Source: Terriglobia bacterium
GTDB lineage: Bacteria > Acidobacteriota > Terriglobia > Terriglobales > Acidobacteriaceae
Direction: 5' to 3'
Assembly (NCBI GenBank): GCA_020072845.1
Contig: JAIQGF010000011.1
Span: 124,001 to 188,000, forward strand
Length of the DNA: 64,000 bases
Below are positions 39,763-43,569 of this stretch, piece after piece. The notes under the pieces were generated by a model, which was given only the letters and a program-made list of their open reading frames with translations, was not told the DNA's origin and ran no database searches. Within the stretch, counting starts at the first letter, position 1; each line of letters begins with the position of its first letter. The position numbers and the translations under genes are program-made.

Positions 39763-40659
39763 TCAGGTTCTGAGTTCCGCCGCCGCTGCGTACGCGGGCT
39801 TGCTCGCAGTTTCTTCCGTCGTCTCTTCCCACAATGTGCGATCGCGCAGCAGCCGCGAAACCAGCGCGGTATGCATGGCGTGTCCGGCTCGGTCGGCGAC
39901 CACGCGTCCGATGATGCGCCGCCCCACCAGCGCCAGGTCGCCGATCAGGTCCAGCACCTTGTGGCGGACGAACTCGTCGGGATAGCGCAGCGGGCCGTTC
40001 ACCACGCTGTCGCGCGTCAGCACGATCACGTTTTGCTCGGAGGCGCCGCGGATCAGGCCCTGGTTGCGCATCGCCTTTTCCTGCTCGACAAAACCGAAGG
40101 TACGCGCGGGCGCGATCTCGCGGCGGTACTGCCCGTCGGAAAGCTCCACTTCGAAGCTTTCGCGCCCGATCAGCGGGTGCGGAAAATTGATGGTGTAGGC
40201 CACCGAATAGCCGGGCGCGGGATAGATGGCGATGAACTTGTCGCCTTCGCGCAATTCCAGCTCGCGCCGGATGCGCATGTACATCCGCTGCCGCCGCTGC
40301 TTCTTCAGCCCCGCGTTCAGCACCATGTCCATGAACGGGCGGGCGCTGCCGTCCAGGATGGGCAGCTCCAGGTTGTCCAGCTCCACGATCGCGTTGTCCA
40401 CGCCCAGTCCGATGAACGCCGAGAGCAGGTGCTCGGTGGTGGAGATGAGCACCCCTTTCTTCATCAGGCTGGTGGCATAACTGACGCGCGCCACGTTGCG
40501 GCTGATGGCTTCTACCAGGAAGCCGTCCAGGTCCACCCGGCGGAAGACGATGCCCGTGCCGGCCGGCGCGGGCAACAGGCGCATATGCACCGGCGCGCCC
40601 GAGTGCAGGCCTACGCCCTCACAGGCCACCGGGCCGCGGATTGTTTGTTCGAAGGCCAA
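39763..40659 (-). CDS. lpxC: UDP-3-O-acyl-N-acetylglucosamine deacetylase
   Basis: A 298-residue zinc deacetylase that commits sugar to lipid A. Seen: QTIRGPVACEGVGLHSGAPV, zinc His in STTEHLLSAFIGLGVDNA, LPILDGSARPFM, the ARTFGFVEQ segment, zinc His/Asp in HKVLDLIGDLALVG, and GHAMHTALVSRLL. No ATG or GTG is available between an upstream stop and the conserved start, so initiation is probably at TTG (40659). It shows that the organism makes lipopolysaccharide. It stands apart from other lpx genes. Confidence 0.95.
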   Translation of the reverse strand: MAFEQTIRGPVACEGVGLHSGAPVHMRLLPAPAGTGIVFRRVDLDGFLVEAISRNVARVSYATSLMKKGVLISTTEHLLSAFIGLGVDNAIVELDNLELPILDGSARPFMDMVLNAGLKKQRRQRMYMRIRRELELREGDKFIAIYPAPGYSVAYTINFPHPLIGRESFEVELSDGQYRREIAPARTFGFVEQEKAMRNQGLIRGASEQNVIVLTRDSVVNGPLRYPDEFVRHKVLDLIGDLALVGRRIIGRVVADRAGHAMHTALVSRLLRDRTLWEETTEETASKPAYAAAAELRT

Positions 40660-40933
40660 AAAGATCGCTTGCTGAGACTCGTCTTAAACGAAGACCCACG
40701 CCCGCACAACAAGTTCTATGCGAACTAACTATTTTCTGATGAGTAGATTACAGCGGACGATTCAAGAGTGGACTGTGGCAAATCAGACACAGTTAGAGTC
40801 GTTCTGACCGCAGGTGCCGACAGGGTAACGAGTTGGAGTGTCAGCCGCCGCCGGGGTCACTGTAAGTTTCAGGTCGAGCGCTTCAGGCCGGCATCTGACG
40901 ACCTGAAACTGAAACTCGAAACTGAACCTGCTT

Positions 40934-41203
40934 CTACTCCGCCCCGGCCTGCACCCGCCGCGCTTCCTCGATGATGCTCTGGAAGATGCGGGTGATGGCG
41001 TCCTGGTCGAGCGGGCCGCTGTTGCCCTGGCGGACGCGCGCCAGCACCTGCCGCTCGCGCTCCGGATCCACAATCTCCATGCCGGTTTCGCGCTTCACCT
41101 TGGCCAGTTCGCAGGCCAGTTTGGCGCGGATGTTGAGCAGGTTGAGCAGTTGGCCGTCGAGGACGTCAATGGCGGCGCGCCAGTCGGATACGAGGGTGGA
41201 CAT
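40934..41203 (-). CDS. aroQ: Chorismate mutase, AroQ type
   Basis: An 89-residue all-helical chorismate mutase that turns chorismate into prephenate for Phe and Tyr. Seen: WRAAIDVLDGQLLNLLNIRA (helix 1 with the catalytic Arg), LACELAKVKRETGMEIVDPE (Lys and the 'D..RE' segment), and ERERQVLARVRQGNSGPL, ending with AITRIFQSIIEEARRVQ. AGGAG lies 7 bases before the ATG at 41203. A strong terminator and a Phe/Tyr-rich reading frame lie immediately upstream on the same strand, suggesting attenuation control. Confidence 0.93.
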   Translation of the reverse strand: MSTLVSDWRAAIDVLDGQLLNLLNIRAKLACELAKVKRETGMEIVDPERERQVLARVRQGNSGPLDQDAITRIFQSIIEEARRVQAGAE

Positions 41204-41260
41204 TGCAATCTCCTGAAAAACGATTCTCTTGAAACCGCTTCTGCTGAAATTTCTGCTGAC

Positions 41261-41296
41261 AAAATAAAAAGCCGCGAACCCTGGAGAGTTCGCGGC
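41261..41296 (-). terminator. Terminator hairpin in the aroQ leader
   Basis: On the minus strand GCCGCGAAC-TCTCCAGG-GTTCGCGGC forms a perfect 9-bp stem (11 with the flanking AA/TT) followed by TTTTTATTTT. It lies 57 bases upstream of the aroQ start codon and downstream of the Phe/Tyr-rich frame. It may act as the attenuator for aroQ, or simply end the regulator gene transcript that stops at 41485. Confidence 0.85.
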
Positions 41297-41323
41297 TTCG
41301 GTCTGGAATCTTTGCGCTAGCTG

Positions 41324-41413
41324 CTACGGAATGTACGCACAAGCTCCGCCTCGGCCGCCACTCCCAAAGAAGTAGCGGTAAGTAAAGGCGTAGCTAAATC
41401 GCGTGCGAGACAT
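41324..41413 (-). CDS. Candidate Phe/Tyr leader peptide of aroQ
   Basis: A 29-codon frame beginning ATG at 41413 and ending TAG at 41324. Residues 5-16 read RFSYAFTYRYFF: seven aromatic residues in eleven, which is the pattern of pheL/pheA-type leaders. The stop lies 28 bases before the terminator stem. Codons 17-20 (GGGAGTGGCGGC) can pair with the first arm of the terminator (GCCGCGAACTCTCC), which would give an antiterminator. Against it: no clear ribosome site precedes the ATG, and a CATAAT just upstream could be a -10 box. Confidence 0.5.
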   Translation of the reverse strand: MSRTRFSYAFTYRYFFGSGGRGGACAYIP

Positions 41414-41484
41414 ATTATGCGCAGCAGCATCATGCCTCGTCACAAGTCTGTGTGTCAACCGGGGATTTGATGGCGTTGCTGATT

Positions 41485-41940
41485 TCAACCGGCGAACCGT
41501 ATGCGTAATCTGACGTCGACGGAGCTCGGTTTATGCGGGGTAACTTGCAGGACCTCAATATCCTGCTCTCGCAGACCTTCGATAAATGGGAGCACATACT
41601 GCTGAGCCGTGGATCGCGTGTCCGTGGCCGGCGGCCTTGATTCACGCTGAGCTCGGAAGAACTCTGTATCTAGCTTCAGTACACCATACGCAAACTCCAG
41701 GCCCCATTTCTGGTTAAGACGCTCCAACACGTCCATGCCGGGCACATCAATTTTTCTTATGTAGTTGTACAGCGCCGCCCGACTTACTCCCAACTCCTGT
41801 GCAGCCTGGAACTTGATTGCCTTTCCGCTAAACCGCTTACCTATCTGTTCGGTCAATTGCTTGGACACGTCCGACATCAGCCGTATGTCCTTGTCGGTAT
41901 GCGGTTTGGGCTTACGACCCCGGCGCTTCATCGCAAACAT
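41485..41940 (-). CDS. HTH transcriptional regulator of the nucleotide-gene island
   Basis: A 151-residue DNA-binding protein. The N-terminus is basic (MKRRGRKPKPHTDKD); residues about 40-75 form a Xre/Fis-like helix-turn-helix: KFQAAQELGVSRAALYNYIR. The C-terminal half (LEFAYGVLKLDTEFFRAQ, YVLPFIEGLREQDIEVLQV, VDVRLRIRFAG) may be a dimer or ligand domain. It is divergent from the four-gene island operon, and the 80-base gap contains three near-identical operator-like words, so it very likely controls that operon and itself. The start could be 41940 or 41931; neither has a clear ribosome site. Confidence 0.72.
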   Translation of the reverse strand: MFAMKRRGRKPKPHTDKDIRLMSDVSKQLTEQIGKRFSGKAIKFQAAQELGVSRAALYNYIRKIDVPGMDVLERLNQKWGLEFAYGVLKLDTEFFRAQRESRPPATDTRSTAQQYVLPFIEGLREQDIEVLQVTPHKPSSVDVRLRIRFAG

Positions 41941-42000
41941 TCTATTCGAATTTTCGAAAAATTCTATTTGAATAATCTATCTATTTGAATAGAATATATT
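41941..42000. promoter_or_regulatory. Divergent promoter with TCTATTYGAAT operator array
   Basis: TCTATTCGAAT at 41941-41951 and TCTATTTGAAT at 41963-41973 and 41980-41990. The last is extended to the perfect palindrome TCTATT-TG-AATAGA. An AATTTTCGAAAA palindrome lies between the first two. This AT-rich stretch stands out in GC-rich DNA. AGAATATATT at 41991-42000 can supply the -10 box of the rightward operon, whose ribosome site is TTGAGG. Confidence 0.65.
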
Positions 42001-42021
42001 AAGATTGATTGAGGTACGCCT

Positions 42022-43569
42022 ATGCTGCAGCAAACGTTCATTCACATCCCCGGCATAGGCAAGCTGACCGAACAGGATCTGTGGGAACACGGCATCCAGT
42101 CATGGGACGATGCCGACCGCTTCGAAAAGCGCTTCGGAGCCGTGGGCGCCCGCCTGCAGCACGTCCTCGACGAATACATTCCCCGATCGCGCGAGGCAAT
42201 TAGAACTCGCGACGCCGCTTTCTTCGAGCGCCTCTGCACGCTGGGCGAGGCATGGCGCGTATTCCCGGAATTCGCTGACGAATGCGTCTACCTCGACATC
42301 GAGACGACGGGCTTGTCCACGGTCTTCGACAGCGTCACCATGGTCGGCCTATATGACGGCCGGAAATACAAAGTTTTCATCGAAGGCGAAAATCTGCAGG
42401 ACTTTGCGGCAGAGTTAGAGCGTTACTCCGTTGTGGTCACGTTCAACGGTTCCGGATTCGACCTTCGTTTTCTCAAGCTCGCCTTTCCTGGCCTCCGCAT
42501 TCCGCCAATTCACATCGACCTTCGCTGGTTAACCCGGAAGCTCGGGCTGCGCGGTGGCCTTAAGGAGATTGAGACGAAGCTCGGCATCACGCGCCCAGAC
42601 GAGGTGAAGGATTTGGGCGGCTACGAAGCAACGGTTCTCTGGTCGAAGTACCTTCGGGGCGAACGTTCGGCCCTCCAGCAACTCGTCCAATACAACACCG
42701 AAGACGTGGTTCACCTGAAGGCGATTATGGAGATTGCCTACGACCGCCTAAGCAAGCGGACGGCTACGTTTCTGCGCAGCTCCATAGCGCCGATTTTTTC
42801 CGGCGTTACGGAAATGCCGCGTGCGTCGCGCTCGGTGGTGAGGCGTGCAAGGTGCACATCGAAGTCGAGCGGCGTTGTGGCCTCGCTCCTCGCCAAATGC
42901 GGCCCTCAGCGCGTAGTGGGTATTGACCTCACAGGCAGCGAACGCAGAGCGACAGGCTGGGCACTAATGGATGGCGCAGAAGCCTCTACAATGGCTCTGC
43001 GGACCGATGAAGAGCTCATCAGGGAAACAGTGGCAGCACGCCCGGATATCGTGTCAATCGATTCGCCATTGTCTCTACCCGAACAGGTAAAGAGCTTGGA
43101 AAACATTTCGGGCCTGATCTACCGGAAATGCGAGCTCGCTCTTAAGCGCATGGGCATCTCTGTCTTTTGGTGCCTCCTGCCTACGATGCAGGGGCTCACA
43201 ATGCGAGGCATGAGGCTGGCGCAGACATTGCGAGGACTGGGCCTAACCGTCATTGAGAGCTATCCGGGTGCCGCACAGGACCTCTTGGGCATTCCGCGCA
43301 AGGGAGCCAGTCTGGAAGAGCTCAAATGGGGACTTCACCGCGCTGGCATCAATGGGAGCTTCCTGACTGAGCGCGTCACCCACGACGAGGTCGACGCGAT
43401 TACCTCCGCATTGGTCGGCCTGTTTTACCTGGCTGATGAGTACATAGCCCTCGGCACACCTTCGGAGGACTACCTGATCGTGCCGCGGTCGCCGAAGATC
43501 AATTACGCGAAGCTCGCGGAAATTCTCTCCGCCACCGGCCTCGATTCGGTGGACAGGAGCCATGCTTAA
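42022..43569 (+). CDS. YprB-like DEDD exonuclease fused to DUF429 RNase H-like nuclease
   Basis: A 515-residue fusion. After a helix-hairpin-like start (FIHIPGIGKLTEQDLWEHGI), residues about 85-245 form an RNase H-fold exonuclease of the YprB type: YLDIETTGLS (Asp92, Glu94), VVTFNGSGFDLRFL (Asp147), and YNTEDVVHLKAI (Asp228). Residues about 297-475 match DUF429: VVGIDLTGSERRATGWALMD (Asp302), DIVSIDSPLSLP (Asp346), VIESYPGAA (Glu411) and THDEVDAITSAL. Two nuclease-type acidic sites in one chain suggest end-processing or invader-nucleic-acid cleavage. It is the first of four close-packed genes; 14 bases separate it from the next. Confidence 0.78.
   Translation: MLQQTFIHIPGIGKLTEQDLWEHGIQSWDDADRFEKRFGAVGARLQHVLDEYIPRSREAIRTRDAAFFERLCTLGEAWRVFPEFADECVYLDIETTGLSTVFDSVTMVGLYDGRKYKVFIEGENLQDFAAELERYSVVVTFNGSGFDLRFLKLAFPGLRIPPIHIDLRWLTRKLGLRGGLKEIETKLGITRPDEVKDLGGYEATVLWSKYLRGERSALQQLVQYNTEDVVHLKAIMEIAYDRLSKRTATFLRSSIAPIFSGVTEMPRASRSVVRRARCTSKSSGVVASLLAKCGPQRVVGIDLTGSERRATGWALMDGAEASTMALRTDEELIRETVAARPDIVSIDSPLSLPEQVKSLENISGLIYRKCELALKRMGISVFWCLLPTMQGLTMRGMRLAQTLRGLGLTVIESYPGAAQDLLGIPRKGASLEELKWGLHRAGINGSFLTERVTHDEVDAITSALVGLFYLADEYIALGTPSEDYLIVPRSPKINYAKLAEILSATGLDSVDRSHA

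Follow-up and report, generated by a model that had tools for sequence, protein, structure and literature searches.

A probable phenylalanine- and tyrosine-sensing leader-peptide attenuator upstream of aroQ in an acidobacterium, with likely relatives on other aromatic-pathway genes

What might a short reading frame crowded with phenylalanine and tyrosine codons be doing just upstream of a chorismate mutase gene, with a terminator-like hairpin in between? The question is raised by a locus within what is here called the window, that is, the whole 64,000-nucleotide stretch of acidobacterial DNA that was analysed, from a genome whose 27 contigs add up to 4.23 Mb. In all likelihood this locus is a ribosome-mediated transcription attenuator responding to charged tRNA-Phe and tRNA-Tyr, with aroQ under its control. 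Its Phe/Tyr stretch, that is, very probably switches aroQ on when these amino acids are short, with other members of the phylum having a switch of this kind on further genes of the pathway.

The leader frame and its surroundings in the window

The leader consists of 29 codons with RFSYAFTYRYFF, running on the minus strand from an ATG at 41413 to a stop codon at 41326-41324, with its control codons extending from Phe6 to Phe16. A preliminary description of this DNA had proposed such a frame, followed by a terminator and then by an aroQ gene with a good ribosome site, and frame, order, gene and ribosome site are all found as described (Table 1), the encoded protein scoring also above the NCBIfam TIGR01807 cut-off. 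The terminator hairpin is present as well, though its stem is of 14 pairs rather than the 9-11 bp originally given, and it is followed by TTATTTTGTC. An intrinsic terminator thus is predicted between leader frame and gene. That the leader is not due to chance is indicated by its composition: among 99,875 stop-free stretches of 12 residues, as taken from all six frames of the window, at least 7 Phe/Tyr are seen at this site alone (as two overlapping stretches), and with a six-frame Phe+Tyr fraction of 0.041 the binomial probability of at least 7 of 12 is 1.3e-7 per stretch.

Table 1. Positions of leader, putative promoter, RNA regions and gene in the window
Feature	Position	Strand	Basis
-35-like hexamer TTGACA, putative leader promoter	41453..41458	(-)	consensus match; same spacing in four same-genus genomes
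-10-like hexamer CATGAT, 18 nt spacer, 15 nt 5' of leader ATG	41429..41434	(-)	consensus match only
Leader peptide frame MSRTRFSYAFTYRYFFGSGGRGGACAYIP plus TAG stop	41324..41413	(-)	direct reading; conserved in three same-genus genomes (G001, G002, G003)
Region 1 (CCGCUACUUC, end of codon 12 to codon 15)	41369..41378	(-)	predicted partner of region 2 when ribosome-free
Region 2 (end of codon 16 to start of codon 27, core GGAGUGGCGGC)	41335..41366	(-)	predicted antiterminator 5' strand
Region 3 (terminator 5' arm, loop and 18 nt upstream)	41282..41317	(-)	predicted antiterminator 3' strand
Intrinsic terminator hairpin (3:4), 14 pairs, loop of 4, then U-rich tract	41268..41299	(-)	fold, -23.2 kcal/mol
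aroQ ribosome site AGGAG	41210..41214	(-)	direct reading
aroQ, chorismate mutase type II, putative regulated gene	40934..41203	(-)	Pfam CM_2 (PF01817), E 7.6e-25

Transcription of the leader probably begins just before its ATG. All four same-genus genomes, i.e., the window's and three others, share the arrangement TTGACA-18-CATGAT, ending 12-15 nt before the ATG, while a CATAAT directly adjoining the ATG is found in the window only, being absent from the three same-genus relatives; a start upstream of the ATG is for this reason the better prediction. A start inside or after the frame, with CATAAT serving as -10 box, had been named earlier as something that would refute attenuation, and what the sequence alone offers here, a CATAAT lacking conservation, does not refute it. 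As the promoter match is so near to the start codon, the window's leader mRNA is likely to be nearly leaderless. The same is suggested for leader mRNAs of the window's family, where for 20 of 23 loci a distance of 8-17 nt separates the start codon from the end of the best promoter match (sought within 80 nt), with L039, L145 and L168, at 22-25 nt, as exceptions. In other families the best match is 7-51 nt away, often more than 20, and L201 is without one. No Shine-Dalgarno-like site is seen before the window's leader, and just 4 of 52 leaders (L039, L176, L180, L213) have a Shine-Dalgarno-like tetramer in the last 16 nt. The attenuator transcripts of Corynebacterium glutamicum aroR-aroF reportedly are called leaderless in the original paper.

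From a different perspective, the terminator could belong to a transcript from further upstream, with the Phe/Tyr frame arising by chance or encoding a small functional protein and no attenuation taking place. A gene for 151 amino acids on the same strand (41485-41940) indeed has its end, at 41485, some 70 nt ahead of the leader ATG. This possibility is nevertheless very improbable given what is found at other loci, both in terms of downstream genes and of RNA pairing, as considered below. The 151-aa gene product has a helix-turn-helix-like stretch by eye, and no Pfam or NCBIfam match to it was found up to E 0.001. On the other strand, at 42022-43569, the window encodes a 515-aa protein with an RNase_H_2 domain, followed by a DUF429 match just below cut-off.

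Occurrence in the genus and across the phylum

In a search with AroQ, 90 genomes out of 100 gave a match, including that of the window, and two aroQ copies are present in each of the four same-genus genomes. The window-like copy is preceded by leader and terminator in all four, and upstream of the second copy neither was found in up to 600 nt (369 nt in G002). Within the genus the length of the leader frame is constant, and its aromatic positions differ by four Phe/Tyr swaps and one change of Phe to Ser. A Phe/Tyr-rich frame plus terminator 5' of aroQ, which the preliminary description had suggested looking for in related genomes and whose want of conservation it had viewed as refuting, is found before the same aroQ copy in the three same-genus genomes, and leaders of this kind are present in many other genera.

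Scanning upstream of aroQ covered 99 of 103 loci, i.e., those placed by tblastn. A search for related loci in genome contigs gave two, namely L032, which is from the same-genus MAG SRVP_22 and duplicates L005, and L033, an aroQ of Bacteroides. Phe/Tyr-rich leaders were accepted in that scan also at L010, L020, L030, L039 and L080; at L010 no terminator was found by the strict finder, and folding gave a bulged one. The frame at L024 was rejected as long and that at L051 for having no terminator, and the upstream scan gave no leader at the Bacteroides aroQ (L033). At L053, a second aroQ copy, a strong terminator-like hairpin is located 60-90 nt upstream of the aroQ match, with no Phe/Tyr-rich frame in the scan, and that hairpin is preceded by what by eye appears to be the end of a DAHP synthase gene.

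In total, the collection from Acidobacteriota amounts to 53 leaders, and after each come a terminator-like hairpin and a gene of the aromatic pathway. What is seen in the window, as in the set of 53, is a short frame rich in end-product codons and 5' of a biosynthetic gene. Leader-peptide profiles (A2 to A5, rebuilt as members were added) were searched against overlapping sets, namely relatives (100 genomes), class (399), phylum (396) and, for each of three members, its neighbourhood (150, 195 and 200). With each place counted once, matches at E<=0.01 that were new to the model used numbered 3, 8, 3, 7, 11 and 11, respectively, of which 3, 7, 3, 6, 9 and 10 are linked to an aromatic gene. Thus 38 of 43 such matches are found just upstream of an aromatic-pathway gene, and this recurrence of leader plus hairpin before aromatic genes, in many genera, is not what would be expected of a terminator left over from an upstream transcript and a frame unrelated to attenuation. 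The remaining matches (L139, L167, L177, L178, L206) were rejected as chance. The distribution is patchy, with 12 of 399 class genomes having a match at E<=0.01, one of these being chance.

Seven accepted leaders had E values of 0.01-0.05 when found (L168, L192, L208, L209, L212, L213 and L165, the last at 0.018 at first and at 0.004 in a later neighbourhood search), and for two, L202 and L213, a GTG start was assumed as no ATG is in place. Weaker matches lacking an aromatic gene were left uncounted, e.g., L190, where the downstream gene by eye is that of glyceraldehyde-3-phosphate dehydrogenase, and L211. The latter displays, at about 1500-1620 of the reverse strand, a leader-like frame MIRFTGAFTYRYAWSCFAA with a GC-rich hairpin directly after it and then a gene.

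Naming of target genes relied on motifs or on tblastn with representative sequences, and for a few on Pfam and NCBIfam. The targets comprise aroQ by itself to the extent visible, aroQ-DAHP synthase, aroQ-prephenate dehydratase (in some of the stretches examined along with DAHP synthase), operons in which DAHP synthase is first, shikimate kinase, and a single aromatic amino acid hydroxylase. At L115, where the contig ends, DAHP synthase was named by eye on the strength of its first residues. The hydroxylase, biopterin-dependent, is found at L192 (1500-1700), 5' of which are a Tyr-rich leader, MNHFTHSFYYLYRYYYWGSRKREKAGERCSA, and a hairpin, pairing support at this locus being weak. At L143 and L205, representing two genera of the window's family, a Trp-bearing leader and a terminator precede shikimate kinase, with Pfam run for L143.

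Predicted competing pairings of the leader RNA

Three rival pairings are predicted for the window's leader RNA, i.e., 1:2, 2:3 (the antiterminator) and 3:4 (the terminator). Pairing of leader codons 17-20 with the first arm of the terminator, which had been noticed earlier, is predicted by folding as well, and reaches further on both sides. The process envisaged is as follows. Upon transcription starting just before the leader ATG, a ribosome translating the leader would stall on codons 6-16 should Phe or Tyr be short, and in so doing would mask region 1. Region 2 could then pair with region 3, such that no terminator would form and aroQ would be transcribed. With Phe and Tyr instead plentiful, the ribosome would cross region 2 and proceed to the stop codon; region 2, first covered by the ribosome and subsequently held by region 1, would be kept from region 3, which then would pair with region 4, ending transcription.

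How well do other loci fit with this scheme? Pairing statistics are based on 52 loci, among which related genera are not independent; L136, which has leader and terminator, was left out. Folds are at equilibrium and at 30 C, with a ribosome footprint assumed to reach from 13 nt upstream of the first P-site base to 16 nt downstream of it. A hairpin of -16 to -34 kcal/mol is found 3' of the leader at all 52, and of the 8 bases that follow it 4 or more are T (5 or more at 44 loci). For 48 of the 52 the terminator is predicted from sequence to pair with a probability of at least 0.9 when the full transcript is naked, and for 51 the 1:2 pairing, with the leader folded alone, has one of at least 0.5. 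Given a ribosome modelled on the control Tyr/Phe codon and a transcript cut at the terminator loop, leader pairing of region 3 is at P>0.8 in 50 of 52 loci, the others being L165 (0.76) and L204 (0.17). The mean of this pairing over the 52 loci is 0.98 at the control codon versus 0.35 five to seven codons later and 0.55 at the stop.

An alternative is that the leader governs the translation of aroQ, whether by coupling or by masking of the ribosome site, rather than termination of transcription. The end of the leader is indeed near to the next gene in some loci, e.g., 76 nt before aroQ in G003. Against such control stand the hairpin and T-run following the leader at every one of the 52 loci, together with an alternative pairing that takes that hairpin's 5' arm, and it must be judged highly unlikely.

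By the same equilibrium measure, leaders with permuted codons average 0.79 at the control codon, which is as high as it is because GC-rich leaders pair readily with GC-rich region 3. Equilibrium probability being in this sense blunt, duplex energies were added, with cross-genus as well as permuted controls. The mean 2:3 duplex energy is -26.7 for cognate pairs as compared with -21.6 across genera and -19.8 for permuted leaders. In all 27 genera, and at 49 of 52 loci, the cognate duplex surpasses the cross-genus mean in strength (1.5e-8 by a Wilcoxon test over genera), and it surpasses the permuted mean in 25 of 27 genera and at 50 of 52 loci. The three loci doing worse than cross-genus pairing (L176, L180, L192) are all of one genus (g278), and pairing support is weak or absent in L204, L165, L115 and L192. 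The Ser/Gly codons following the control codons overlie region 2, and its bases fit the terminator arm of their own locus better than those of other genera, which again argues against a chance frame or small protein preceding some upstream transcript's terminator, and for attenuation.

For the window itself the 2:3 duplex is modestly above permuted leaders (z -1.5, with 10% of permutations equally good), and differs from cross-genus duplexes by a small margin, -22.3 vs -21.5. The sister locus L003 has a large margin (z -3.2) and a perfect GCGGCUUCGG/CCGAAGCCGC. When the ribosome is placed on the stop codon, the window leader's predicted fold has P(1:2) of 1.0 and P(2:3) of 0.0, and region 3 is by the equilibrium measure still 0.79 leader-paired, its partner being codons 2-5 rather than region 2. 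With the ribosome so placed, 2:3 (mean P(2:3) 0.34) persists in L003, L112 and L114, and in these the covering of region 2 by the ribosome consequently must outweigh the 1:2 hairpin. Folding and duplex energies across the family hence point to an antiterminator competing with a terminator in a manner that depends on ribosome position, with the case for the window's leader alone being a modest one.

Leader codons, the first gene of the operon, and known systems

From the first leaders a prediction was set down prior to its testing, namely that DAHP synthase-first operons would have leaders with Trp and aroQ-first operons leaders without, with shikimate kinase added to the former ahead of the test. 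Within the discovery set Trp is found in 11 of 13 leaders of common-pathway-first operons vs 2 of 15 that are aroQ-first. Among leaders found afterwards it is present in 5 of 5 vs 2 of 18 (Fisher, 6e-4) or, per genus, 4 of 4 vs 0 of 5 (p 0.008). For all 51 leaders of both classes the numbers are 16 of 18 vs 4 of 33 (p 8e-8) and, per genus by majority, 12 of 14 vs 1 of 13. Exceptions are L115 and L165, which have no Trp, and L039 (at its last codon), L166, L200 and L202, which do. As many aroQ-first operons carry DAHP synthase further down and yet mostly lack Trp codons, the rule concerns the first gene rather than the operon as a whole. A link between leader codons and the place of the first gene in the pathway thus appears well supported at the level of comparative genomics.

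Should the RNA instead sense a metabolite or a tRNA directly, as a riboswitch or T-box, then the frame would be incidental, and its amino-acid content would hardly be expected to track the pathway in this way. That idea may draw on nucleotide-level conservation inside the frame, e.g., the string CGATTT (Arg CGA, Phe TTT), which 20 of 52 leaders contain in their first 30 nt. No Rfam family is at gathering score at the window, however, nor, besides a tRNA, in 20 leader loci (Rfam 15); for window positions 40000-43000 there are three sub-threshold matches up to E 5, of which one, over the leader, is a Burkholderia sRNA at E 2. Direct sensing by RNA is consequently the least credible of the alternatives considered, and exceedingly so.

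The preferred mechanism itself, i.e., ribosome-mediated attenuation, is the classical one, known from E. coli pheA and from C. glutamicum aroR-aroF. E. coli pheA (with pheL), which encodes chorismate mutase-prephenate dehydratase, and pheST are described in PMC11802643 as subject to leader-peptide attenuation by charged tRNA-Phe. Leader peptide and attenuation, as proposed for the window, are alike, while by comparison of descriptions the window mixes Phe with Tyr codons and has region 2 inside the leader's coding part; its leader also is without a Shine-Dalgarno-like site, and Rfam models do not match it. The aroR-aroF leader of the actinobacterium C. glutamicum, given also in PMC4046766, is similar as a Phe-Tyr-Phe leader peptide, there upstream of a DAHP synthase gene (as outlined in PMC11802643), whereas the window's gene is that of a chorismate mutase and the window's relatives add Trp before common-pathway genes, a likeness drawn by description. 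In that system transcription rises upon Phe limitation and Tyr has no effect (Neshat et al. 2014, as described in PMC11802643), and as a similar leader thus answers to Phe and not to Tyr, Tyr sensing by the window's leader is a prediction only.

Attenuation had earlier been held to be little described outside of Proteobacteria and Actinobacteria, which is too broad a statement in light of prior proposals. The histidine leaders of bacilli (hisZ, hisS), as presented in PMC2965389, likewise are leader-peptide attenuators outside of those groups, differing in amino acid, genes and phylum. In Acholeplasma, uORFC-13-1 has been proposed as an upstream frame with Phe codons plus a terminator before aroF, for DAHP synthase; that motif, by the account of it in PMC8632094, is reported only from Acholeplasma and environmental sequences, its model needing at least one Phe codon and including a ribosome site. 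For Acidobacteriota, no description of a leader-peptide attenuator was found in titles and the beginnings of abstracts of the open-licence literature. A genome-wide survey is relevant in this regard, as it states that attenuators predicted in Acidobacteria almost all lack associated functions (PMC2965389), and the present set offers a proposed function for attenuators of this major soil phylum. Peaks in leader-gene distance, Acidobacteria among them, have been related to reinitiation (PMC4833913). By all that sequence can show, then, this is a real, conserved attenuator of classical type in a phylum for which none was found described.

The comparative set may be viewed as a natural experiment in which leader amino acids follow the branch point of the operon's first gene, and it renders testable both the gain and loss of control codons in leader peptides and leader translation without a Shine-Dalgarno site. 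A broader reading, to which belief and doubt may be accorded in roughly equal measure, would have nearly leaderless leader peptides serving phylum-wide as a logic gate. Scarcity of Phe or Tyr alone would then open aroQ-led operons, with Trp codons being acquired wherever all three amino acids depend on the first gene (DAHP synthase or shikimate kinase), and codon content would be rewritten as the switch moves along the pathway.

Two details of codon usage may be added. No role was found for the above-noted CGATTT string in leaders. TTT, in turn, accounts for 114 of the 213 leader Phe codons vs 17 of 57 in six genes of the window.
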